A stretch of 64,000 nucleotides of DNA, from IMG/VR virus record IMGVR_UViG_3300037297_000249, positions 46,051-110,050 of that record; one strand, 5' to 3'. Source of the stretch: a virus. A program made the translations under genes and the position numbers. The notes under the pieces are model-generated. The model saw only the letters and a program-made list of their open reading frames with translations. It made no database searches and was not told the DNA's origin. Positions 30,452 to 45,863 of this stretch are shown piece by piece; positions within the stretch are counted from its first letter, which is position 1, and every line of letters starts with the position of its first letter.

Positions 30452-30760
30452 ATGAAAACACAGAAGACGGAGTTGGTGACGGAGGTTGGAGAGAGGTCAG
30501 AAGTTCTATTCAGAGTAGCCGGTGGGTCTCAAGTTAAGCTGGTAGCTGGAGCAATAAGCAGGTCTATTCGGGAAGGAAATACTCCGGTCATTGTGGCCAT
30601 AGGGGCAGGAGCGGTAAATCAGGCATTAAAGGCGATATGTGTATCTCAGGGCATGATAGCTCCAGAGGGTTATTCTATTGTCATTAAGCCAGGATTTCGG
30701 GATGAGTTCATAGGGGGGAGGAAATGTACTGCGATGTCTATGAAGGTGGTTTCTATTTAG
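30452..30760 (+). CDS. SpoVS-like (Alba-fold) protein
   Basis: The 102-residue product reads VKLVAGAISRSIREGNTPVIVAIGAGAVNQALKAICVS in a row of helices and strands with the SpoVS hallmark AIGAGAVNQALKA, ending in an IKPGFRDEFIGGRKCTAMSM strand. SpoVS of sporulating Firmicutes and its relatives in Deinococcus and delta-like proteobacteria have an Alba-type nucleic-acid-binding fold. It lies one gene before QueD. Its phage role is unknown. Confidence 0.82.
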   Translation: MKTQKTELVTEVGERSEVLFRVAGGSQVKLVAGAISRSIREGNTPVIVAIGAGAVNQALKAICVSQGMIAPEGYSIVIKPGFRDEFIGGRKCTAMSMKVVSI

Positions 30761-30771
30761 CTGGAGGAGTG

Positions 30772-31215
30772 ATGAATAAAGTTGTTAAGGAAGTGGCGTT
30801 TGACGCCGCACACAGGTTATTTGGGTACCCCGGAAAGTGTGCTAACATTCATGGGCATAGATATAGGGTCCTGGTAGCGCTCAATTACAGAGAAGTGAGA
30901 GATGACGGTTTATCTATAGACTTCAGCAGGATAAGCGATAGCGTAGGGAAGTGGATTTCCGAGAATTGGGATCATAAGTTGCTTCTGAATTCGGAAGACC
31001 CACTAGGTAAGTATTTAGTGGATACAAGTTTGTGTACTGTGAGTTCTATTTTCAGTTTTGAGAAGAATCCCACAGCGGAAGTCTTGGCGGAGTACTTAGT
31101 GAAAGTTGTGATACCGTATCAGTGGCCATACCTCGGGCATATTCTGCATTCAATTTCGGTCTATGAAACTCCCACTTGTTGCGCAGTAGTTAAGGTTCCA
31201 CATGTATCAGATTAA
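30772..31215 (+). CDS. queD: 6-carboxy-tetrahydropterin synthase (QueD)
   Basis: From the ATG preceded by GGAGG, the 147-residue protein has VAFDAAHRL and NIHGHRYRVLV, giving the three zinc His of the 6-pyruvoyl-tetrahydropterin synthase fold. SIDFSRISDSV, WDHKLLLN and PTAEVLAEYL (catalytic Glu and His partners) follow, as does the closing VYETPTCCAVV. It makes CPH4 from dihydroneopterin triphosphate, the second step to preQ0. It overlaps queE by 14 bases. Confidence 0.88.
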   Translation: MNKVVKEVAFDAAHRLFGYPGKCANIHGHRYRVLVALNYREVRDDGLSIDFSRISDSVGKWISENWDHKLLLNSEDPLGKYLVDTSLCTVSSIFSFEKNPTAEVLAEYLVKVVIPYQWPYLGHILHSISVYETPTCCAVVKVPHVSD

Positions 31216-31879
31216 TGAGATTTTTTATAGTATTCAGGGTGAGGGGGTCAGTATTGGGTATCCAGCAATATTTGTTAGGTTCTCCGGGTGTAATTTAGCT
31301 TGTCCTTTCTGCGATACTGAGCATGATACGTTTACTGAGTATTCATTAGATGGTTTAGTGTCGGCTATAGTTGCCATGAGGGCTAAGTTGGGGATGCACC
31401 AAGGGTATGGTTTTTTATCTAAAGATAGGCCAAGATGCGTTTTTACGGGTGGGGAGCCAATGCTTCAGTTAGATGTGAATCTTATTGGGGCACTTAGGGA
31501 AGCTGGGTTTTTACTGTGCATTGAGACTAATGGTACGATAGGTGAGCAGTGGATGATATCCTTGGATGAAGTTACAGTTTCGCCAAAGAGACCTATCGAC
31601 GAATTGCCTGCGTTGAGATATGCGACTACGGTTAAAGTTTTGGTTCCAGTTTTTGAGGGTATAGAAGTATCCAGTTTAGTGGGAAAGGTGAATTATAGTG
31701 ATGTAAGAAGATGGAAGGTTAACTTGGTATTACAGCCAATAAGGGTAGAGGATGGAGTTTTGGGGCAGTTTAGAAAAAATTGTCGGGAAGCTGTCAGTTT
31801 GCAAAAAAAGCTATGGGTTCGACATAGACAGTTATGGAGAGTAATTCCCCAGGTACATCGTTTCATGGGGATAATTTAG
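31202..31879 (+). CDS. queE: 7-carboxy-7-deazaguanine synthase (QueE)
   Basis: The 225-residue radical SAM protein has FYSIQGEGVSIGYPAIFVRF, then GCNLACPFCDTEHD with Cys30, Cys34 and Cys37 binding the 4Fe-4S cluster, and VFTGGEPMLQ (SAM-binding GGE). SPKRPI is the substrate-binding SPK segment. It converts CPH4 to 7-carboxy-7-deazaguanine. Length and order are normal for the family. Confidence 0.9.
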   Translation: MYQINEIFYSIQGEGVSIGYPAIFVRFSGCNLACPFCDTEHDTFTEYSLDGLVSAIVAMRAKLGMHQGYGFLSKDRPRCVFTGGEPMLQLDVNLIGALREAGFLLCIETNGTIGEQWMISLDEVTVSPKRPIDELPALRYATTVKVLVPVFEGIEVSSLVGKVNYSDVRRWKVNLVLQPIRVEDGVLGQFRKNCREAVSLQKKLWVRHRQLWRVIPQVHRFMGII

Positions 31880-31891
31880 GAGGTCTTGAGT

Positions 31892-32260
31892 ATGAAAGAG
31901 TACAGAGAAGGCAATAATGAAGCTGAAGCGGAAGATGGGGTCGAAGATTCTTTTGAGGATGCTGTAACCGGAGAGCAAGTCTCGGCTATATCAGCAATCC
32001 TGTTGGTATTAACTCCCCGTGGAGTTGAGTTGTTGACGGACATTAAGGGGATAAAAGTCGATAGGCAGGCAACATATCACGATGTAGTTATGATGACTTC
32101 GGTAGCAAAAGCAGAAGCTGAGGCTACCATCTCCAGCAGGTATACGGCTGATGCTATGTTGAAGAGTATGAGGTCTGTTCAAAAAGCGGCCGCTGGAAGG
32201 AGAGCTCCAAGAAATGTTGGAGGAGTCCCTATTATTGGAGGGGGAAGGCGTGACCACTGA
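31892..32260 (+). CDS. Hypothetical protein within the deazaguanine cluster
   Basis: From the ATG after AGGAGG this is a 122-residue protein. It has an acidic N-terminus (NNEAEAEDGVEDSFEDAV), a helical middle and a basic C-terminal tail (MRSVQKAAAGRRAPRNVG). No family recognised. It sits between queE and folE and overlaps folE by 11 bases, so co-expression with preQ0 synthesis is likely. Confidence 0.5.
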   Translation: MKEYREGNNEAEAEDGVEDSFEDAVTGEQVSAISAILLVLTPRGVELLTDIKGIKVDRQATYHDVVMMTSVAKAEAEATISSRYTADAMLKSMRSVQKAAAGRRAPRNVGGVPIIGGGRRDH

Positions 32261-32816
32261 AATACAGCGGGAGATGGAGGAGGCTGTAAAAGTTCTTCTT
32301 CGAGGTATGGGTGAAGATATTCGCCGAGAGGGGTTGTTGGATACCCCTAGACGCGTAGTCAATATGTTCTTGGAGATGACGGAAGGTTTAAGGGTGTCGC
32401 CCCCTCATATGACAACGTTTAGTAAGGGGTCTACCGATCAAATGGTAATAGTTTCTGACATTGCGTACACGAGTTTGTGTGAGCATCATTTAGCACCGTT
32501 TACAGGTAGAGTTCATATTGGATACCTTCCGAGCGGTCGGCTGGCCGGGTTATCGAAGTTGGGTAGAATTGTTGAGTGGTATGCAAAAAGGCCTCAAATT
32601 CAGGAGAGGTTTACTTCACAGATAGCGGATAAGTGTGTTGATGAGCTGGACCCGGTTGGGATTATTGTGGTTGCAGAAGGGCATCACCAGTGCATGTCCA
32701 TGAGGGGCATTAAAAAAGAAAATCATAAAACTGTTACTACGGCAATCAGGGGGAAGATAGCCAAGAATGAGTTTTTCCAGGCTTTGGGGGTTACCCGTGG
32801 CCACCATAGTTTGTGA
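32250..32816 (+). CDS. folE: GTP cyclohydrolase I (FolE)
   Basis: The GTG at 32250, with GGAGGGGGAAGG before it, gives 188 residues; a TTG at 32214 would lengthen it inside the previous gene. The protein shows LLDTPRRVVNMF, SLCEHHLAPFTGRVHIGYLP (Cys and His zinc/active-site residues), GLSKLGRIVE, and HHQCMSMRGI with the third zinc Cys. It makes 7,8-dihydroneopterin triphosphate from GTP, the first step to preQ0. Confidence 0.9.
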   Translation: MTTEIQREMEEAVKVLLRGMGEDIRREGLLDTPRRVVNMFLEMTEGLRVSPPHMTTFSKGSTDQMVIVSDIAYTSLCEHHLAPFTGRVHIGYLPSGRLAGLSKLGRIVEWYAKRPQIQERFTSQIADKCVDELDPVGIIVVAEGHHQCMSMRGIKKENHKTVTTAIRGKIAKNEFFQALGVTRGHHSL

Positions 32817-33129
32817 TCTGGATGGGGTCATCGCGAAGCCGGTTGCGAGCCATACTGAGTATTCCAACTGCGAGCCGAATCAAGAAGTCATAGGAGTTTT
32901 GCATAGGCTTGTACGTTTGGGTCATGAGATTGTGATTCATACCGCAAGGTGGGAAGTAGATAGAGGTGTTACGGAGTCTTGGCTTAGGAGGAATTCAGTA
33001 CCATATTCTAAAGTTGTGTTCGATAAGCCGTTAGGTCAGGTGTATATTGATGATAGGGCTTTATTGTATAGTTCTAATGACGAGACCAGGGTTAGTTTGT
33101 TAGAAGAGATTCTAGGGAGGCTAAGATGA
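32797..33129 (+). CDS. HAD-family phosphatase-like protein
   Basis: From the GTG at 32797 the 110-residue protein has motif I IVCDLDGVIA (both Asp present), motif II HTARWE and motif III/IV VVFDKPLGQVYIDDRAL. All HAD catalytic acids are intact, in contrast to the paralogue-like protein at 12.2 kb. A longer ATG start at 32767 lacks a ribosome site. Being inside the deazaguanine cluster, it might act on a nucleotide or sugar-phosphate, by inference. Confidence 0.7.
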   Translation: MATIVCDLDGVIAKPVASHTEYSNCEPNQEVIGVLHRLVRLGHEIVIHTARWEVDRGVTESWLRRNSVPYSKVVFDKPLGQVYIDDRALLYSSNDETRVSLLEEILGRLR

Positions 33130-33854
33130 GTCCTGAAGTTCTGGGTGATTTACACATTATTTTGTACAGCGGTGGTATGGATTCGTATATTACTTATAAG
33201 TATGTTGGGCGAATTTCGGGTGATAATGATATAGTTTATCCTGTTTATTTTAGTCTCGGACACAGGTATGAGCACCAGGAGCTGGCGGCAGTTGCGAATA
33301 CTTTGGGCAGTAAAGTTATGCGGGATTTTACCCTTAAAGGACTGGGTAAAGTTGAAGACTATTTTGCGCATATTCCGGGGAGGAATGCACATTTAGTTTT
33401 GGCTTCTTTGAAATATGCGGTTGTTAAGTCCAGTAAAGTTTTTGTTTGGCTTACGGTTCAAAAAGATGAGATGAGTATTCCGGATAGGAGTGAAGAGTTT
33501 TTTGAGAAGATGTCAGAGGTTTGTAGTGTGTTGGTTGGCTCGGAGGTTCATGTGGCGACCCCATTCAGGGATATGGATAAGGCAGATATGGTGGCATGGT
33601 ATTTGTCTAAGGGATATTCAGTTGATGAGTTGTTGAGTACTTGGGCATGTTATAATTCTACTTCGTATATTCCGTGCGGCGAGTGCAGTGCATGTATCCG
33701 GAGATACATTGCTCTGAGTATTAATGGTTTAAGTGAGGAGTACAGAGTTGACCCTTTGAGTTCTAGCTTGGCGGATAGTTATAGAAAAGCGGCAAAGTTG
33801 GGGGAGTACAGTGAGCAACGTTGTGGAAGAATACTGGAGGTGTTAGGTGAGTGA
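33126..33854 (+). CDS. queC: 7-cyano-7-deazaguanine synthase (QueC-like)
   Basis: The 242-residue protein has the PP-loop ATP site IILYSGGMDSYITYKY, SIPDRSEEFFEKMS, and the zinc cluster in ACYNSTSYIPCGECSACIRRY. This is the QueC layout: ATP-dependent conversion of 7-carboxy-7-deazaguanine to preQ0. It overlaps the HAD gene by ATGA and the radical SAM gene by 8 bases. Confidence 0.88.
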   Translation: MSPEVLGDLHIILYSGGMDSYITYKYVGRISGDNDIVYPVYFSLGHRYEHQELAAVANTLGSKVMRDFTLKGLGKVEDYFAHIPGRNAHLVLASLKYAVVKSSKVFVWLTVQKDEMSIPDRSEEFFEKMSEVCSVLVGSEVHVATPFRDMDKADMVAWYLSKGYSVDELLSTWACYNSTSYIPCGECSACIRRYIALSINGLSEEYRVDPLSSSLADSYRKAAKLGEYSEQRCGRILEVLGE

Positions 33855-34926
33855 GCTAAAAGACTGCATGGTGCTGAAGGCTGAGTGGCTTGTAACTAGA
33901 GAGTGCAATCTGCGATGTGAGTATTGCCAAATTAGAAATAAGCCAGAAGGTATGTCCGAAATCTCTACAGAGAGGGCTATAGAGATTGTAGAGATGTTCT
34001 CTAAGTTGTGGCCGGGGGCGCCGATGGTGATTTATGGTGGAGAGCCGACTACTCGGGAAGATTTGCCAGACATCTTGGCCGCAGGAGTGAGGTTTGGGGT
34101 TAAGTTGCCCGTGATTTCTAATTCTATTAGGGTGTTACACGATAGTGAATACACCAAAAGATTGGTAGATGCAGGGTTAGCTAATTGGAGTGTGTCGCTG
34201 GACCGACTAAGTGGCGTCCCATATTACGACAGGTCTTCGTTGATAAAGTCGAAAAATGGTTTAGAGGCGTTGAGAATGTTTAGGGATACTTATGGTATAC
34301 GTGATTTAGTCGCGTGTATCACAATAACCAGGTACAATATCGAGCATTTGCCAAGGATGGTCGAGGAGCTAACCGCCGAGGGGATTTGGGCGATAATGAC
34401 GCCCTTGCAGGTCGGCGATGAAACCCGTGAGTATGGGAGGTCCTCTAGATTGCACCAGGCTAATCAGGAGCAGGCAGATCGTGTTGGAGAAACAATAGAG
34501 GCTATGGCTAAAAGCGGTGGGTATCTATTGCACAATGATTCTGAGTGGTTTGCTCAGTGGGGTGAGATCTTTGTGAGCAATGGGTGGAAATGCACTGGAA
34601 AGGCTGCCTTAACCATCGATGCCGATGGTAAGATTCGATATTGTGTGGATCATCCGTTACCCGAGGACATCTATGCTTGGGAGATGACTGACCCCAAGCG
34701 AAGGAGTAGGTATCAGGAGCTTATTGATGCGGGGGTTCCGTGCACCGGTTGCAGCTGGGATCAAAACGTTGAGTGTCTACGGCGGTCAAGGGACTCGAAC
34801 GTAGGCGTGTCGGAGGGTAGGAGGAGGTCCAGGCATGAGGTTCCCGACGACAAGCTGTTGAAGTTGAAGCCGGCGGCGAGAAAGTGGTTCGTGAACAACC
34901 CACGGTTGGAAAGGGTAAAGGTGTGA
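33847..34926 (+). CDS. Radical SAM/SPASM-like enzyme of unknown substrate
   Basis: This 359-residue protein (GTG start) has TRECNLRCEYC with Cys20, Cys24 and Cys27 for the SAM cluster and VIYGGEPTTRED for SAM binding. The C-terminal third carries further Cys (WKCTGKAAL, IRYCVDHPL, PCTGCSWDQNVEC) as in SPASM/twitch extensions that hold extra Fe-S clusters. The last ~20 residues contain a 26-base DNA segment identical to part of polA. It lies between queC and two glycosyltransferases, suggesting a role in base or sugar modification. Confidence 0.8.
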   Translation: MSELKDCMVLKAEWLVTRECNLRCEYCQIRNKPEGMSEISTERAIEIVEMFSKLWPGAPMVIYGGEPTTREDLPDILAAGVRFGVKLPVISNSIRVLHDSEYTKRLVDAGLANWSVSLDRLSGVPYYDRSSLIKSKNGLEALRMFRDTYGIRDLVACITITRYNIEHLPRMVEELTAEGIWAIMTPLQVGDETREYGRSSRLHQANQEQADRVGETIEAMAKSGGYLLHNDSEWFAQWGEIFVSNGWKCTGKAALTIDADGKIRYCVDHPLPEDIYAWEMTDPKRRSRYQELIDAGVPCTGCSWDQNVECLRRSRDSNVGVSEGRRRSRHEVPDDKLLKLKPAARKWFVNNPRLERVKV

Positions 34927-34927
34927 C

Positions 34928-35794
34928 ATGGGAGAAGTGACGATTGCTATTCCTACCAGAGGTAGACAGGATTTTCTTGCAGTCCTTCTAGCATCTATTG
35001 CGAATGATGTTCGAAACGTTGCTGAAGTTTTGATTATTGAGAACGGGCCAATTACTGAGCAGTACACGTCAGGAGTAGTCCTTCGTGTGAGGGAGTTGTT
35101 AGTCTCTTTGGGGGTAAAGGTTACAGCTACGCATATTGGGGATGTTGGGCGTCAGGCATCCCAGGCGAGAAATTTTGCGCAGATTCATTGTACGTCTGAG
35201 TTTTTGATTTGTGTTGATGACGATATGTGGTTTGAGCCTGGAGTTATAAACCGGATGTATCGTATGTTCAGCATAGCTGAACGACGAGCTGACGGGCCTG
35301 TAGTTTTGTCTGCATTGACCCCCTATGTAAATTCGGAGTGGGATGGACCTAAGGCAAATGACAAGTTGGATATGCCAGGGAAGGATGAAAAAATTATAGA
35401 GGTTATACCTACCCCAGGTCAATATATGCCGTTTCAGTTGATACTGAAGCAGAATTGTTCGTTTCAGGATTGTGAGGTGTCGGTGGATGCTTTACGTTGG
35501 TCGGACGCTTTAACTCCAGGGGTTTATTTTATGCGTCCGGACATCTCGGTCCCAAATTGGGATATTTCGGATCAGAGTTTATACACTGACATTGCCTGGA
35601 GTTTGCAGTTAGAGATTCTTCGGGGGTACAAGTTTTGTTTTGATTTAGGCAGCAGAGTTTATCATTTGCATGCTCAGAGTGGGGGTACCCGGTTGGGCGA
35701 GGGGAATTACTCTAAGCCTAGAAAGTTTTATGAAGCAAATTTGAAAGCGATAGAAAAGCTTTTGGAGATGAAGGTGGGTAGCGATGGCGTATAG
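34928..35794 (+). CDS. Glycosyltransferase family 2-like protein
   Basis: The 288-residue protein starts VTIAIPTRGRQDFLAVLLAS and has QARNFAQIHCTSEFLICVDD (then DM), the DxD-like metal site of GT-A enzymes, near residue 95. Later blocks such as DISVPNWDISDQSLYTDIAW and YHLHAQSGG fit acceptor-binding and the C-terminal His of GT2. One base separates it from the radical SAM stop. Sugar donor and acceptor unknown; DNA base glycosylation is a hypothesis. Confidence 0.72.
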   Translation: MGEVTIAIPTRGRQDFLAVLLASIANDVRNVAEVLIIENGPITEQYTSGVVLRVRELLVSLGVKVTATHIGDVGRQASQARNFAQIHCTSEFLICVDDDMWFEPGVINRMYRMFSIAERRADGPVVLSALTPYVNSEWDGPKANDKLDMPGKDEKIIEVIPTPGQYMPFQLILKQNCSFQDCEVSVDALRWSDALTPGVYFMRPDISVPNWDISDQSLYTDIAWSLQLEILRGYKFCFDLGSRVYHLHAQSGGTRLGEGNYSKPRKFYEANLKAIEKLLEMKVGSDGV

Positions 35795-36566
35795 TGTGTG
35801 TATTCCTACTGTGGGGAGAATAGAGACATTGCCTACGGTGTTGTTTTCTATTCTGGGGCAGAAGGGGGTTTCTGAAGTCATTATTTTGGATGAGGCATCG
35901 GTTCCTGTTTGTGAGTCATTTGTGGTTAACCAGGCATTGGACCTTTTAAGTTTGTCTAAGGGGATTGAAGTACGAGTCATACGGCGCCGGAGAAGGGGCG
36001 GGATAGGGAAAGCCAGAGTCGATCTTATTAATGAAGCAAAGAACGATTATATTGTGATGGTTGACGACGACGTCGTTTTAGGGGAACGGTGTGCAGAGGT
36101 CTTGGTTTCACATTCGATGGAGCATGCTTCGTGGGCAGTACCCACCTGTGTGTTGATTTCCGCCGGGCTCGAGTTGGATGGGTATACTGACCAGGTGGTG
36201 GATGCTGAGGACCCTAAAGTGAAGCAGTGGACGGAGAGATACCCATGGTTTATGCCTTATTTTAGGTACAGTAAGGTCGTTATTGAGACACATTTGGGTT
36301 GTGCAGGCACTCAGTGTATAGTTTTCAGCAGGGATAGAGTTAAGGACTCGTTTGATTTCTTAGACAAGAACGGAGCTCTCCCTAGGGAGGATACATTGTT
36401 CACTAGGGTTACCGGGCCAGGGGTGTTTTATTCAGGGGTGGAGTGTTATCATTTTGAGCATAAGTCCCAGGTAACCAGGGGGCAGTGGGATAGGCGAATG
36501 TTCTACCGAGTTCATGAGGCAATTTTGAAAGACCCAAAGGCCTACATAGAGTTAATGGGGTACTGA
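35784..36566 (+). CDS. Glycosyltransferase family 2 protein
   Basis: The 260-residue GT-A protein begins YSVCIPTVGRIETLPTVLFS, with SEVIILDEAS and GGIGKARVDLINEAKNDYIV leading to VDDDVVL, the metal-binding DxD. WHL-like C-terminal pieces (GVECYHFEHK) follow. It overlaps the previous GT gene by 11 bases. It is similar in design to that neighbour but diverged in sequence, so not a recent duplicate. Confidence 0.78.
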   Translation: MAYSVCIPTVGRIETLPTVLFSILGQKGVSEVIILDEASVPVCESFVVNQALDLLSLSKGIEVRVIRRRRRGGIGKARVDLINEAKNDYIVMVDDDVVLGERCAEVLVSHSMEHASWAVPTCVLISAGLELDGYTDQVVDAEDPKVKQWTERYPWFMPYFRYSKVVIETHLGCAGTQCIVFSRDRVKDSFDFLDKNGALPREDTLFTRVTGPGVFYSGVECYHFEHKSQVTRGQWDRRMFYRVHEAILKDPKAYIELMGY

Positions 36567-37486
36567 TGAAAATTTTGTATATTAAAAACGGGTATGAGAA
36601 TGATACGTGGTTTGATGAATTAGGCAATATGTTTTTGTCTAACGGAGCTACGGTTTGTTATACCTCCTTTGATATGGTGGAGCCTGCGGAGTGTTTTAGA
36701 TTAGTAGATGAAGTTTTGCGGCTGGGGCCTCATGTGGTTCATGCTCCCGCGTTGGGTAGTCCTGCTTGTATTTTGCAGATTGTTAGTAGTATACCAACGG
36801 TAATTCAAGCTTCCGATAATTATGAGGCGGATATTCGGAGGTTCTTTGAAAGCGAGCCGAGAAGAGGTCAGACGGACGATCGGTTGAGGGCGTTTACTAT
36901 GTCGCAGGCTACGTTTTTGGTTACGGCCAAAAGAGAAGCACAAGCTGGGCTTAAAGTTTATACTCCAAGTGCAGTGTATGTGCCCCGTCCTATAAATTTT
37001 ATGTATCAAGGTTTAGCCAGGCAGGACGGAATTATCGGAGTAGTTAGTTTAACTGGAGTGGAGGAGCTTAGACCGGCATTTGATGGCGAGTTGGTGTCTT
37101 TGCGAATACCATATAAGTTTGATGATAAATTATGCAAAAGTTACTCTTGCATAATTATTGCTCCGGGAGTAGAGTTATCGGCAGATGGCATTGAGCATTT
37201 ATGCTCTATGGGAGTTCCGATTGCTAGACCATCGAGTGTTAAGTTTGATATTGAAGATGAGTTTAATTTTTTGGAGTATTCATTGGACGATTGGCCGAGG
37301 TCAGCAAACAAGCTAGGGTTAAGTTTGAGTTCCATGGATGACGATAGCTATTATGGTAATGAGGTCGAGAAGATTAAGGCCATTTATGACAGGAGGTCTG
37401 TTGAGTCTGTTTATATGGCTTATAAGCGTATTTATGAGAATGCCGTTCGTAAGGCATTAATACGAACACCAGTTCGTGGATGGTAG
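36566..37486 (+). CDS. Glycosyltransferase-like protein (GT-B type)
   Basis: This 306-residue protein starts MKILYIKNGYENDTWFDELG and has a pattern of two alpha/beta halves with VHAPALG and VIQASDNYEADIRRFFE in the first and VYVPRPINFMYQG, IIIAPGVELSADG and MGVPIARPS in the second. The second set resembles the donor-binding half of GT4-type GT-B enzymes. It overlaps its upstream GT by one base. Assignment is moderate because catalytic EX7E is not clear. Confidence 0.55.
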   Translation: MKILYIKNGYENDTWFDELGNMFLSNGATVCYTSFDMVEPAECFRLVDEVLRLGPHVVHAPALGSPACILQIVSSIPTVIQASDNYEADIRRFFESEPRRGQTDDRLRAFTMSQATFLVTAKREAQAGLKVYTPSAVYVPRPINFMYQGLARQDGIIGVVSLTGVEELRPAFDGELVSLRIPYKFDDKLCKSYSCIIIAPGVELSADGIEHLCSMGVPIARPSSVKFDIEDEFNFLEYSLDDWPRSANKLGLSLSSMDDDSYYGNEVEKIKAIYDRRSVESVYMAYKRIYENAVRKALIRTPVRGW

Positions 37487-37492
37487 TAAATC

Positions 37493-39046
37493 ATGGCTGT
37501 TGAAGGTAAGAGTAGGGATAGTGTATTTGCGGGTGATAGTCCTATAGGTAGGCACTTAGCCAGATGGGATAGAGATATTCCCCAGGAGAAGCGTACTTAT
37601 GGGGTTAAGGTGTGTTTAGCCGGAGGTGAAGGGAAATCTTTTAGGGACGGTCTATATAGAGTTGGAGTGCGGCACTTATTGGCCTCTTATCTCTACATGA
37701 GAAACTGGCTGAAGAAGCATTCCGTTGAAGAGATTGAAAAAGATTTGGGGAGGTTTGATTATTTAATCTTGGATTCCGGGGGTTTTACTCTCTTAAAGGA
37801 GCGAAAGAAGAACCCTGACTTTGGGGTTAAGATGGATGTTCGTGAGTATGCTGAGGAGTACTACACTGAGTTAAAGAGAATAGGGCATTTGTTTTCTATG
37901 TGTGCTGAGGTTGATCTGCCGTCTGAAGTTGGGGTTGATTATGGGGAGGCAATGAAAAGGGAGTTGATTTCTGGGGGTGTGCCTATAGTCCCTGTAATGC
38001 AAGGTCAACCAATAGAGTATTTCAAAAAGCTTAAGTGGTTTGATAACTTTCCTTACATCGCTATTGGGTCGGCAGTTATAGGGAAGGGTGATTATAAGGG
38101 ATGGTTGCGGGATGTTTTTAAGATAGGCAAGGAAAACGGGAACATTTTTCATGGGTTTGGGGCTACGGCCGAAGATGTTTTGTTTAAGGGTCAATTTTAT
38201 TCGGTAGACTCAACCACTTGGATTGATGGTGGGAAATACGGTACGACTATGATATATGAAAATGGTCGTATTCGGTATTACGATATGGAGAGCAAAAGCA
38301 TTCGGAAAAAGTATAAGCGGATGTTCGAAGAAAATGGAATTGTTTTTGCGGACATCATGAAGGATAAGGCTTTTGAAGTTAACATGATGAATGCGGTTGC
38401 ATGGAGACAGCTGGGTGAAGGGCTTAAGTATGATGTTCGAAATTCTTATTGGCTTACGGATGAAGAGAGAGAAGCTGCGGCCACTATAAAGGAGTCTGTA
38501 TATAATAAGGATGGATTGATCGACCGTAGCCAGTCTATTGCCAGAGCTCAGCTAAGAAGGAGCAACATTAAGCGAGACCCACGGCGAGACGACAGAATTC
38601 ATGAGCCGATTAATTGTAGTACATGTTTCTTTGAGGGGAAATGTCCGAGGTATAAGCCGGGAGCTCCATGTGGCTTTGATATGAACTTGCAGATCGAGAG
38701 TGAGATAGATTTGCATAGGGTCATGAAGAGCTTGGTAGAGACGGCTTATGGTAGAGTTATGAACGGTGTGCTATTCGAAAAATTACATGGCGGATCTCTT
38801 GATAAGAATGTGTCTGCTGAGTTAAAGAATTTGGTGGGCATAGTTAAAGATCTTCGCGATGTCTACATGCCTAAGAAAGGAGGTAGCCAAGAAGAGGATG
38901 GGGAGTCCTTTACTTTATCCGGTAAGGCTACCTCCAAGGGTGTCTTGAGTCAGATGCTATCTTCAGTCTTTGGGGCCGATGGTGATTCCAAGGATGGGGA
39001 AGTTGAAACTATTAACGTAACTCCCGAAGAAAGTCGGGAGGAATAG
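37493..39046 (+). CDS. dpdA: DpdA-like DNA guanine transglycosylase
   Basis: The 517-residue protein has a TGT fold: RFDYLILDSGGFTLL near residue 90 (the DSGGF nucleophile region of tRNA-guanine transglycosylase), MCAEVDLPSE, PVMQGQPIEYFKKL, YIAIGSAVIGKGD and NIFHGFGATAED. A late Cys cluster (INCSTCFFEGKCPRYKPGA then PC) may bind metal. DpdA swaps guanine in DNA for preQ0, the product of the Que genes just upstream. Its length exceeds tRNA TGT because of a C-terminal extension. Confidence 0.85.
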   Translation: MAVEGKSRDSVFAGDSPIGRHLARWDRDIPQEKRTYGVKVCLAGGEGKSFRDGLYRVGVRHLLASYLYMRNWLKKHSVEEIEKDLGRFDYLILDSGGFTLLKERKKNPDFGVKMDVREYAEEYYTELKRIGHLFSMCAEVDLPSEVGVDYGEAMKRELISGGVPIVPVMQGQPIEYFKKLKWFDNFPYIAIGSAVIGKGDYKGWLRDVFKIGKENGNIFHGFGATAEDVLFKGQFYSVDSTTWIDGGKYGTTMIYENGRIRYYDMESKSIRKKYKRMFEENGIVFADIMKDKAFEVNMMNAVAWRQLGEGLKYDVRNSYWLTDEEREAAATIKESVYNKDGLIDRSQSIARAQLRRSNIKRDPRRDDRIHEPINCSTCFFEGKCPRYKPGAPCGFDMNLQIESEIDLHRVMKSLVETAYGRVMNGVLFEKLHGGSLDKNVSAELKNLVGIVKDLRDVYMPKKGGSQEEDGESFTLSGKATSKGVLSQMLSSVFGADGDSKDGEVETINVTPEESREE

Positions 39047-43708: not shown

Positions 43709-43762
43709 GTGGGGCGGGTGGAATAAACTCGGCGGGCACTGAGTCCTCCCCGCCCCACTTTT
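43709..43762 (+). terminator. GC-rich hairpin terminator before a tRNA-like element
   Basis: GTGGGGCGGG (43709-43718) pairs with CCCGCCCCAC (43749-43758) and is followed by TTTT. It abuts the tRNA-like element that starts at 43763, so it may stop transcription or act as a processing site. Confidence 0.7.
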
Positions 43763-43833
43763 CAAGACGACGCTTAACGGTAGAGCACAAGGAGTATCTC
43801 CTAGAGTTGCGGGTTCGAGTCCCGCCGTCTTGT
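43763..43833 (+). tRNA. tRNA-like element with an atypical anticodon loop
   Basis: The acceptor stem CAAGACG/CGTCTTG pairs fully. A D arm (GCTT AACGGTA GAGC) and a T arm (GCGGG TTCGAGT CCCGC) are standard. The anticodon arm would be CAAGG/CCTAG with one mismatch and the loop AGTATCT, giving anticodon TAT with G instead of U at position 33 and C at 37. CCA is not encoded. It looks like a tRNA gene, but the loop departs from rules, so decoding function is uncertain. Confidence 0.6.
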
Positions 43834-43859
43834 CCGATATTCATGGGATTGGGGGTGTT

Positions 43860-44063
43860 ATGCGGGTATGGCATTTAAGCGTCCGCGAGGGGCATGAAGC
43901 GAAGGGGTTTGAAAGAGCTCTGGTTATTGCAGAGACACCCAAAGAAGCGCTAGAGGTTGTGGGCGGGGATTTCGGTAAGGCATCCATTTCGGTTAAGGAT
44001 GTTGGGGATTATTTCGGTAGGGGTAAGCGAGGGGATATCGTGTATCTTCAGCGTTCGGCTTAG
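43860..44063 (+). CDS. Small hypothetical protein between tRNA-like elements
   Basis: From the ATG after GGGGGTGTT the product has 67 residues (VWHLSVREGHEAKGFERALV, then ISVKDVGDYFGRGKRGDIVY). A longer frame would begin inside the tRNA-like element. No family recognised. Confidence 0.5.
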   Translation: MRVWHLSVREGHEAKGFERALVIAETPKEALEVVGGDFGKASISVKDVGDYFGRGKRGDIVYLQRSA

Positions 44064-44090
44064 AGGGTTTCAAGCTGGATATAAGTTTAA

Positions 44091-44219
44091 GGGCCAATGG
44101 CGGAATTGGTATACGCAAGAAGAAGTTGAGTAGCAGTTGCTCGATATGGGTACGGTTAATGCCGAAACACTGTATACCATATAGGTACTGCATTACAGGT
44201 TCGAGTCCTGTTTGGCCCA
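44091..44219 (+). tRNA. tRNA-Leu-like element with expanded middle region
   Basis: Acceptor GGGCCAA/TTGGCCC, the Leu-type D arm TGGCGGAATTGGTATACGC and T arm ACAGG TTCGAGT CCTGT are all intact. At 129 bases it is about 44 longer than a tRNA-Leu. The middle cannot form a normal anticodon stem. It contains instead nested pairings (GCAGT with ACTGC; ATATGG with CCATAT). It may be a disrupted tRNA, a tRNA with an unusual insertion, or a tRNA-shaped RNA with another role. Confidence 0.5.
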
Positions 44220-44294: not shown

Positions 44295-44558
44295 ATGTAC
44301 GATGACAATGTTTCAAATGGTTCGTTATTAGCGACTAAAATCGAAAACTGGTTTACGTATCATCCCCCCAAAGGCGATCAGGCTGAGAGGTATGGGAAGA
44401 TACGAGATGCCGCGAAGGAGTTCGCCCTAGTGATTGCACGATGCACGCCGATTTCGGCGGACCAGACAGTTGCTTTGCGTCTTATTAGAGAGGCCGTGAT
44501 GACGGCGAATGCAAGCATTGCTTGTGAGGAGGCATGTGAGGAGGCATGTAAAGGGTAA
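44295..44558 (+). CDS. Acb2/Tad1-like hairpin-domain protein (cyclic-nucleotide sponge candidate)
   Basis: The 87-residue product reads NWFTYHPPKGDQAERYGKIR, AAKEFALVIARCTPISADQ and REAVMTANASIA. This FTYHPPKxxQxERYxxIRxxAKxLAxxI...AVMxANAAIA pattern is that of small phage proteins grouped with Acb2/Tad1 hairpin domains. Those proteins bind and sequester cyclic nucleotides used by CBASS and Thoeris immunity. Helix length and spacing fit. The family link is recalled, not searched; activity is an inference. Confidence 0.65.
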   Translation: MYDDNVSNGSLLATKIENWFTYHPPKGDQAERYGKIRDAAKEFALVIARCTPISADQTVALRLIREAVMTANASIACEEACEEACKG

Positions 44559-45367
44559 TGAGTTTTTGTTGGCGTAATAGGGTCTTGCATGGGGTGTGGT
44601 TGGGGTACGACCCGATAATTATATTAGAACGCGACCGGAAGTGTTGCGAGAGGAGGTTTCATCGGTGGAAATTTGATTGGGATAGAAGGCCGAATTACCT
44701 GGTGTGTTGCGATTGTGGAGCTAGAGCCATTCCCCATGTTTGCGATTGGGATAGGGTTCTAAGTTTGAGATCAAGGGTTCTTGGGGAGGTTGAAAATATG
44801 GCAACAGTTTTGGTTGTTGGCTGTGTTAGGAGTGGGTTAAGTCTAACTATGCAGATGTTAGATGCGGGTGGATTTCCTTGTGTGGGGAAGTACCCAGCAT
44901 ATGAGAAGTACGATTTAAAAAAAATCAATTGGAAGGAGTGCAGGGGTAAGGCAGTAAAAGTGGTGGATACCTATAAGCAGTTTCCACCCGTAGGGTATTC
45001 CTATAAGATTATTTATTTGCAAAGGGATGCCCTTCAGCAGGCGTTAAGTTTTAATAAGTTTTTGCGTGAGATAGTTGGTCAGCCTGAGTTGCCATTGCAA
45101 TTAGTGCAGGATTCCTTTGCGCAGTCCTATAGTCAGATTAATCAGTGGTTCAATAGGGCTAAGGGAGTAAAGGGTGTAGTAGGGTTTGAGGACATACTAT
45201 CGAACCCTGGCGTGGTAGCTCGTCGGCTGGCCAGAATTGTAGGTCAAAAGTTGGATATTTCAGCTATGGCTAAAGCTGTAGTTGACCGGAATGCTAAGTG
45301 CTATCCGGGGTTTTTGGAGATGTCTTTGATAGACAAAGTAGAGGGTTTACATGGAAAGGTTGTTTAG
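44558..45367 (+). CDS. Sulfotransferase-like protein with Cys-rich N-terminus
   Basis: The 269-residue frame has two parts. Residues 1-80 are basic with a possible zinc site (YLVCCDCGARAIPHVC). Residues 81-269 form a sulfotransferase-like domain: VLVVGCVRSGLSLTMQML (P-loop-like), GYSYKIIYLQRDALQQALSF and GVVGFEDILSNP, matching the layout of the sulfotransferase at 19.5 kb. A second start at 44798 with GGGGAGG upstream could make the domain alone. Substrate unknown. Confidence 0.6.
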   Translation: MSFCWRNRVLHGVWLGYDPIIILERDRKCCERRFHRWKFDWDRRPNYLVCCDCGARAIPHVCDWDRVLSLRSRVLGEVENMATVLVVGCVRSGLSLTMQMLDAGGFPCVGKYPAYEKYDLKKINWKECRGKAVKVVDTYKQFPPVGYSYKIIYLQRDALQQALSFNKFLREIVGQPELPLQLVQDSFAQSYSQINQWFNRAKGVKGVVGFEDILSNPGVVARRLARIVGQKLDISAMAKAVVDRNAKCYPGFLEMSLIDKVEGLHGKVV

Positions 45368-45863
45368 TTTTATTTGGATTATGATTTTGGGGTGCAGTTC
45401 TGGGAGCGGAACGGGTAAGAATACCCCTGCCGATACCGATGCCGAGGGGGATATCCCTGTCGATACTGCCACGGATACCGATACCGATGGGGATACCGAT
45501 GGGGATACCGATGGGGATACGGACACGGACACGGACACGGACACCGATGGGGATACCGATGGGGATACCCCTGCCGATACCGACACCGACACTGATGGGG
45601 ATACGGATACCGATACCGATGGGGATACCGATGGGGACACGGACACGGACACCGATACCGACACCGACACTGATGGGGATACGGATACCGATACCGATGG
45701 GGATACCGATGGTGACTTAGGCAGGGAAGGGGCATGTATTACAGACCAAAAAAATTATTTGGAGGACTTTGGCTATAGTCCCGAGAGTATGACTGTTGAA
45801 GATTTGGAGGAGGTATTGAGTTTATCTTCGGATTTCTGGGGGTCCTTTCCAGTATGTGAATGA
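45351..45863 (+). CDS. Thr-Asp repeat lipoprotein
   Basis: The 170-residue protein has a signal peptide ending in the lipobox ILGC, then about 90 residues of Thr-Asp/Gly-Asp repeats (DTDTDGDTDGDT type), and a folded C-terminal end with two Cys. The repeat is encoded by repeated GATACC/GACACG units. Such TD-rich lipoproteins are frequent in Myxococcota and related bacteria. It should be anchored in a host membrane with an acidic, possibly calcium-binding stalk. Confidence 0.65.
   Translation: MERLFSFIWIMILGCSSGSGTGKNTPADTDAEGDIPVDTATDTDTDGDTDGDTDGDTDTDTDTDTDGDTDGDTPADTDTDTDGDTDTDTDGDTDGDTDTDTDTDTDTDGDTDTDTDGDTDGDLGREGACITDQKNYLEDFGYSPESMTVEDLEEVLSLSSDFWGSFPVCE
45481..45717 (+). repeat. Tandem GAY-ACN codon repeat in the lipoprotein gene
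   Basis: The DNA is a mix of short units such as GATACCGATGGG and GACACGGACACC repeated without interruption for about 240 bases. The unit order differs between parts, as expected from slippage and reshuffling. It encodes the Thr-Asp stalk. Confidence 0.85.

Follow-up and report, generated by a model that had tools for sequence, protein, structure and literature searches.

The 64,000-nt viral sequence analysed here (the window), part of the 110,050-base IMG/VR record IMGVR_UViG_3300037297_000249, encodes a 129-nt element, E2, in which the shell of a leucine tRNA encloses a structured domain and no anticodon arm. The shell, the missing arm, the recurrence of such elements and the covariation within them are direct observations, and E2 is very probably a maintained RNA that lacks an anticodon arm. 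We judge the chances to be about even that it can be charged with leucine, a prediction made from its nucleotides, and we give similar weight to the combined reading, in which E2 is a maintained, non-decoding leucine-acceptor RNA of a recurrent phage class. That it acts as a sponge is a more tentative proposal. The class to which E2 belongs looks recurrent, widespread and mostly unannotated in phages, the last perhaps because tRNA finders require an anticodon arm.

Structure and surroundings of E1 and E2

A first-pass annotation of the window had described two tRNA-shaped elements with non-canonical centres, here called E1 and E2 (Table 1), and had suggested a covariance search for a valid anticodon. 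Using cmscan with weak filters, we found that the Rfam tRNA model RF00005 (cut-off 29 bits) matched both elements and that neither contains a usable anticodon, in agreement with that description. Both were missed by the default gathering run of Rfam cmscan and by ARAGORN. No further tRNA was found in the other 46 kb of the 110-kb record, and a blast search of the E1/E2 region against named phages returned short tRNA pieces only.

Table 1. Positions of E1, E2, their parts and adjacent features in the window.
Feature	Position	Strand	Description	Basis
Hairpin 5' of E1	43709..43758	+	GC-rich hairpin, then TTTT, ending 4 nt 5' of E1	-31.2 kcal/mol, z -3.68
E1	43763..43833	+	tRNA-shaped, usable anticodon loop absent	RF00005, 41.1 bits, E 2.8e-5 (window)
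E1 anticodon-position arm	43788..43804	+	CAAGG AGTATCT CCTAG	Sequence, fold
E2	44091..44219	+	129-nt tRNA-Leu-like RNA without anticodon arm	RF00005, 37.2 bits, E 3.3e-4 (window)
E2 acceptor, 5' strand	44091..44097	+	GGGCCAA, 7/7 with TTGGCCC at 44212-44218	Sequence
E2 U8, G9 and D arm	44098..44116	+	GCG-GAATTGGTATA-CGC with A14, A15, G18G19, A20a	Sequence, Rfam alignment
E2 middle domain	44117..44194	+	78 nt replacing anticodon arm and variable arm; U48 is the last nt	Rfam alignment
E2 helix A	44125-44132 with 44138-44145	+	GUUGAGUA/UGCUCGAU; loop GCAGU is the helix B 5' strand	Pseudoknot model
E2 helix B	44133-44137 with 44187-44191	+	GCAGU/ACUGC, 3 nt 5' of T stem	MFE fold
E2 long hairpin	44144-44156 / 44169-44182		Enclosed by helix B	MFE fold
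E2 T arm	44195..44211	+	ACAGG-TTCGAGT-CCTGT	Sequence, Rfam alignment
E2 A73	44219			
ORF with Acb2/Tad1 hairpin domain	44295..44558	+	Directly 3' of E2	Pfam PF24729, 51.5 bits

Of the features of a decoding tRNA, the 7-bp acceptor, D arm and T arm are present in both elements, and the 5-bp anticodon stem with a 7-nt loop containing U33 is absent from both. The perfect acceptors and standard D and T arms previously ascribed to the pair were confirmed, the acceptors being paired at 7/7 positions in each; the description needs a single amendment, in that E1 carries A8 in place of U8. E2 retains the elbow features of a tRNA (U8, A15-U48, G18G19 and A20a) and has every member of the leucine-type set, namely the Leu D arm, T arm, 7-bp acceptor, U8, A15-U48 and A73. 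Its third acceptor pair is G3-C70, unlike the G3.U70 of tmRNA and tRNA-Ala.

Neither the RNA fold nor the Rfam alignment places an anticodon arm in E2, as expected from the earlier claim that this 129-base element cannot form an anticodon stem. The nested pairings that had been proposed for its centre were also recovered, the fold placing a long hairpin inside helix B. The pseudoknot model, in which helix A encloses the 5' strand of helix B, outscored 100/100 dinucleotide shuffles; helix B alone gave a less extreme value against shuffles (pB 0.06). The middle domain has no covariation of its own, because the sole close relative is identical. Helix B does occupy the same position as a covarying helix in a cluster of related elements described below.

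That relative is contig L004 (~98% identical), which carries E1 and E2 letter for letter. As 336/976 intervals of 200 bases are equally free of differences between the two sequences, this identity is no evidence of selection, and we rejected that argument. Relative to window positions 43835-44090, L004 has ~190 extra bases and a small ORF between E1 and E2. Contig L003, whose match is to the 5' end of E2, seems to be unrelated and its match fortuitous.

E1 has a fully paired acceptor (CAAGACG/CGTCTTG), a 4-bp D stem (GCTT/GAGC), a T stem GCGGG/CCCGC, and U73. Its anticodon stem CAAGG/CCTAG contains a single A.A mismatch (A28.A42), and its loop AGUAUCU reads A32 G33 U34 A35 U36 C37 U38, with a predicted G33-C37 pair that closes the loop to a UAU triloop; sequence and fold thus agree with the G33, TAT loop and mismatched stem noted in the first-pass annotation. 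A scan for one pattern, a tRNA shell with G33 and C37, matched five stretches in IMG/VR, the near relative among them, so E1 is rare. It is probably also non-decoding, and we regard it as an oddity in which decay and function cannot be separated here. The hairpin upstream of E1 is a possible terminator or processing hairpin by its predicted fold; it was unreported by a terminator scan whose loops are limited to 3-8.

The ORF directly 3' of E2 belongs to the Acb2/Tad1-type family, anti-CBASS-type sponges of cyclic-nucleotide immune signals. It is a neighbour of E2 and fits a sponge role. We rejected a general link between this gene and E2-type elements, as it was present in 1/40 carrier records searched, that of the near relative. 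Elsewhere in the window, positions 30724-39046 hold a gene cluster resembling 7-deazaguanine DNA modification, with ORFs that we take to be radical SAM (QueE-like), QueD-, FolE- and QueC-like, and with a match to the queuine tRNA-ribosyltransferase family (phrog_887) at 37493-39046. A small P-loop ATPase at 47535-48035 matches AAA_33 and a phage polynucleotide kinase family (phrog_505), and an ORF at 45351-45863 has a lipoprotein-like start followed by a long DTDGDTD repeat.

Related shells in IMG/VR and in cultured phages

In ordinary tRNA-Leu, ~40 nt separate the D-arm and T-arm motifs. An IMG/VR scan in which the Leu D arm GGCGGAATTGGTANACGC had to precede GGTTCGANTCC by 70-100 nt found at least 119 such stretches; the family counts are lower bounds. 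Among the matches listed, 105 of the 122 extracted (three of which are E2 itself) keep at least 6 acceptor and at least 4 T-stem pairs, and 85 of these 105 are unique. Since the search patterns fixed both, conservation of the D arm and of most of the T arm is no evidence. The acceptor was free to vary: when no acceptor filter was applied, 83/98 unique shells among the matches listed had 7/7 acceptors, compared with 2.8% when partners were exchanged between stems, and the 59 distinct acceptors among these matches vary with compensation. Positions that the search pattern left free were also constrained, with U8 in 105/105, U48 in 104/105 and A73 in 87/105 of the matches listed. After seven odd loci had been set aside, U8, U48 and A73 occurred jointly in 66 of the 80 unique shells among the matches listed, A73 was missing from 13/80, and nucleotide 74 was C in 69/80.

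Scanning with a second Leu D arm (GTG/CAC) found 36 stretches, 28 of them with good shells, and 18 of these 28 have U8, U48 and A73 together. A Ser-type pattern matched 0 stretches in a single control scan that carries no denominator. Bacterial and archaeal genomes totalling 257 Gb contained 9 stretches matching a similar, somewhat stricter Leu pattern. Four blast matches (L240, L242, L243 and L244) proved to be ordinary tRNA-Leu and were discarded. The Brevundimonas phages Kabachok and Papperlapapp carry a Leu-like 5' piece at which ARAGORN finds no tRNA.

The middles have no common fold. The pseudoknot model beat shuffles (p<=0.05) in 13/79 clusters, which leaves a single pseudoknot for all middles unsupported, and a helix 1-3 nt 5' of the T stem did so in 17/79. 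In one cluster (L039, L053, L054, L055, L065, L072 and L073; four distinct rows) the middle is structured and mostly constant, and in the helix adjoining the T arm both partners have changed at 3/6 pairs, with pairing kept at 100%; the acceptor of L055 is incompletely paired. In two members of this cluster, L039:841-973 and L072:6038-6170, the 7-nt loop of a hairpin differs (CTGGCCA versus CTGATCA), and as both loops contain a 6-nt palindrome, a self-kissing (dimer) contact would be kept. Across the family, no neighbour gene recurred outside individual phage clusters of 6 or fewer loci. Promoters and terminators occurred at chance level. A literature search whose coverage left most subscription journals outside listed no account of a phage RNA class of this kind.

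Similar shells occur in cultured Lactobacillus, Leuconostoc and Weissella phages. From an unannotated shell of the same build in Leuconostoc phage phiLM33_01, we assembled a set of 18 lactic-acid-bacteria records that contain the T arm motif GTGCAAATC, 17 of them phages and one a plasmid. A fully paired (7/7) acceptor adjoins a D-arm-like stretch in 17/18 records with the GGTGCAAATCC T arm, the exception being phage P1 (L260). The 14 tabulated elements have four acceptor types, all paired; a second place in phage LP65 (L255) was excluded from the counts. In the records fetched, no tRNA annotation lies on these elements, and one of them, in LP65, overlaps the hypothetical gene orf80. An Rfam search of seven of the loci gave no match at the elements.

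The middles of the 12 distinct lactic-acid-bacteria elements that we parsed are 32-164 nt long. The shortest, at 32 nt, are in phage Sha1 and an L. plantarum plasmid; these two elements have ordinary tRNA length and yet no anticodon arm, so they contain no insertion. Three of the 12 middles (L241, L253 and L263) hold a possible arm under loose rules applied without a shuffle control. The elements at L241, L248-L254 and L256-L265 have the T loop GTGCAAATC with G55, a 6-bp T stem, and the D loop AATAGG rather than AATTGG. G55 and the 6-bp T stem set these shells apart from E2, and the resemblance claimed is one of build; both features also deviate from the leucine set described for E. coli and could impede EF-Tu. 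The carriers include cultured phages of Lactobacillus plantarum and Leuconostoc mesenteroides, which opens the class to experiment now.

Intron-like loci and rival explanations

An intron-containing tRNA gene, in which removal of a small insert would give a normal tRNA, is an improbable account of E2. Our intron test asked if removal of one segment yields a canonical anticodon arm. For E2 there was no perfect solution, and with one mismatch allowed the arm had 3 Watson-Crick pairs only, so that the splicing envisaged in the first-pass annotation finds no single deletion to restore the arm. Solutions with at least 4 Watson-Crick pairs were found in only 4/81 Leu-type clusters, with 1.58 expected by shuffling, and the arm is likewise missing from the two relatives whose length is that of an ordinary tRNA. 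The intron reading does look true for a different set. Class-I shells with 65-92-nt middles gave 63 stretches, of which 44 matches passed, in 35 clusters; removal of one segment produced perfect tRNAs in 12/35 of these, compared with 0.08 expected. The test can therefore find introns, and E2 differs. Under relaxed loop rules, used here without a shuffle control, 18/35 class-I clusters were solvable, and 13/18 split after nucleotide 28 or 29. We rejected both the loop-intron and the general split model for E2, the latter having exposed the separate intron-like set.

The class-I loci (L147, L152, L158, L159, L162, L178, L179, L194, L200, L202 and others) are phage tRNA genes with inserts of ~42-55 nt that interrupt the 5' side of the anticodon stem following nucleotide 28 or 29 and whose removal leaves perfect Cys, Lys, Asn, Ser and other tRNAs. 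Many of the inserts have in common a hairpin followed by CAGCAA, and, judged by sequence, they may be small tRNA introns of a new kind. Three of the four solvable Leu-type clusters (L043, L045 and L052) resemble anticodon-loop mini-inserts, which favours the intron reading for those loci. They are tRNA-Leu(UAA)-like, as is L224 by eye, and their anticodon loops are interrupted between CTT and AAAA by 33-62 nt. The position is close to the classical group I site, but the inserts fall far short of the length of a group I intron.

Three other explanations were weighed against a maintained leucine acceptor. Were E2 a natural tRNA scaffold, the shell would supply clean ends and nuclease resistance, the middle would be the working part (an aptamer, an antisense or a ribosome-binding RNA) and charging would be irrelevant. 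Middles that are unrelated between clusters inside a constant shell, and the highly conserved, structured middle of the L039 cluster, speak for this idea; a generic scaffold, however, would have no need of the leucine-set nucleotides U8, U48 and A73, which most shells among the matches listed retain, and the two members with 32-nt middles have almost no payload. We therefore consider it rather unlikely. There is a slim chance that E1 and E2 are decaying or chimeric tRNA genes without function. The mismatched stem, A8, G33, C37 and U73 of E1 are what decay might leave, its G33/C37 pattern, as searched in IMG/VR, was matched elsewhere only by the near relative and 4 other contigs, and the unchanged copies in that relative are uninformative, so that decay, as the first-pass annotation had it, is a possible reading of E1. 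For E2 it is disfavoured, because the shell persists in dozens of different phages that are all without this arm; decay should have damaged the acceptor, D and T stems as well, yet acceptors co-vary across phages, and so does the counterpart of helix B in the L039 cluster.

Phages also counter tRNA-cutting defences with tRNAs of their own. The portion of a report on such defences that we drew on describes RNA repair as a phage countermeasure (PMC7824862), a setting in which a decoy for anticodon nucleases would make sense. This earlier suggestion is nevertheless very improbable, because the site that those enzymes recognise is absent: E2 has no anticodon arm, and the loop of E1 is non-standard. 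Such a decoy may instead be aimed at factors that bind the body or the 3' end of a tRNA. The remaining proposal from the first-pass annotation, a tRNA-like regulatory RNA, gains for E2 from the recurrence in phages, the co-varying shell and the absent anticodon arm; its regulatory role is conjectural.

Proposed role and comparison with known systems

For a maintained, non-decoding leucine acceptor, we propose the following path. RNase P and 3'-end enzymes would excise E2 in the manner of a tRNA, and it would receive or complete CCA. The host leucyl-tRNA synthetase could then recognise it through A73 and the elbow (A15-U48, G18G19 and A20a), with no need of an anticodon. As E2 cannot read codons, it is not consumed in translation and would be a stable stand-in for a tRNA. 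Its likeliest use would be as a sponge or bait that occupies host factors binding to or attacking the body or 3' end of tRNA, with defence enzymes, toxins and charging sensors as candidate targets; charged or uncharged, a non-decoding stand-in could bind up LeuRS, EF-Tu, or the defence enzymes and toxins acting at those sites. The middle domain may add stability or a second binding face. More broadly, it is possible, on what we regard as a tentative extrapolation, that phages of different bacterial hosts encode natural leucine-chargeable, non-decoding RNAs as sponges or baits in conflicts over host tRNA. If E2 is maintained and charged, it would represent a widespread phage RNA class that tRNA finders miss, and it would become testable which property of tRNA apart from decoding phages need to imitate.

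tmRNA has a helix just 5' of its T arm. Like E2, it has a tRNA-like shell without an anticodon; unlike tmRNA, E2 has a full D arm and G3-C70, and neither Rfam nor ARAGORN gave a tmRNA match for it. G3.U70, the alanine determinant, was found in 0 of the 59 distinct family acceptors among the matches listed. On these grounds we rejected a relation to tmRNA. Group I introns in tRNA-Leu(UAA) are likewise inserts in a tRNA-Leu gene, but the middle of E2 is far too short, has no Rfam intron match and does not restore an anticodon arm upon removal.

A precedent in kind, likened by eye only, is the species 1 RNA of phage T4 (rnaC), which is also phage-encoded and stable. It is ~140 nt long, lies beside tRNA genes, and has by eye a T arm (CCGGG-TTCGAAT-CCCGG) and no apparent anticodon arm. 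It differs from E2, again by eye, in lacking a tRNA-Leu D arm and in having an imperfect acceptor, and cmscan of rnaC gave no RF00005 match. Its function is described as still unknown in the parts of two reports that bear on it (PMC9697503, PMC3014915); a class of anticodon-less RNAs puts it in a possible context.

The closest likeness is to bacterial tRNA-Leu (class II, RF00005), with which E2 shares the acceptor, D arm, T arm, U8, A14, A15-U48, G18G19, A20a and A73. In contrast to that tRNA, E2 has no anticodon arm, carries a structured domain in place of the variable arm and is non-decoding. A review of tRNA identity reports for E. coli that A73, A15-U48, G18G19 and A20a matter to leucine identity and the anticodon does not, and that tRNA-Leu variants without the anticodon arm are still leucylated (PMC9976931). 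In the same review, an engineered tRNA-Leu without anticodon and variable arms is missing the same part as E2; it is a laboratory construct chargeable by LeuRS, whereas E2 is natural, phage-borne and equipped with an extra domain (PMC9976931). If maintained and charged, E2 would be the natural counterpart of this engineered anticodon-less tRNA-Leu.
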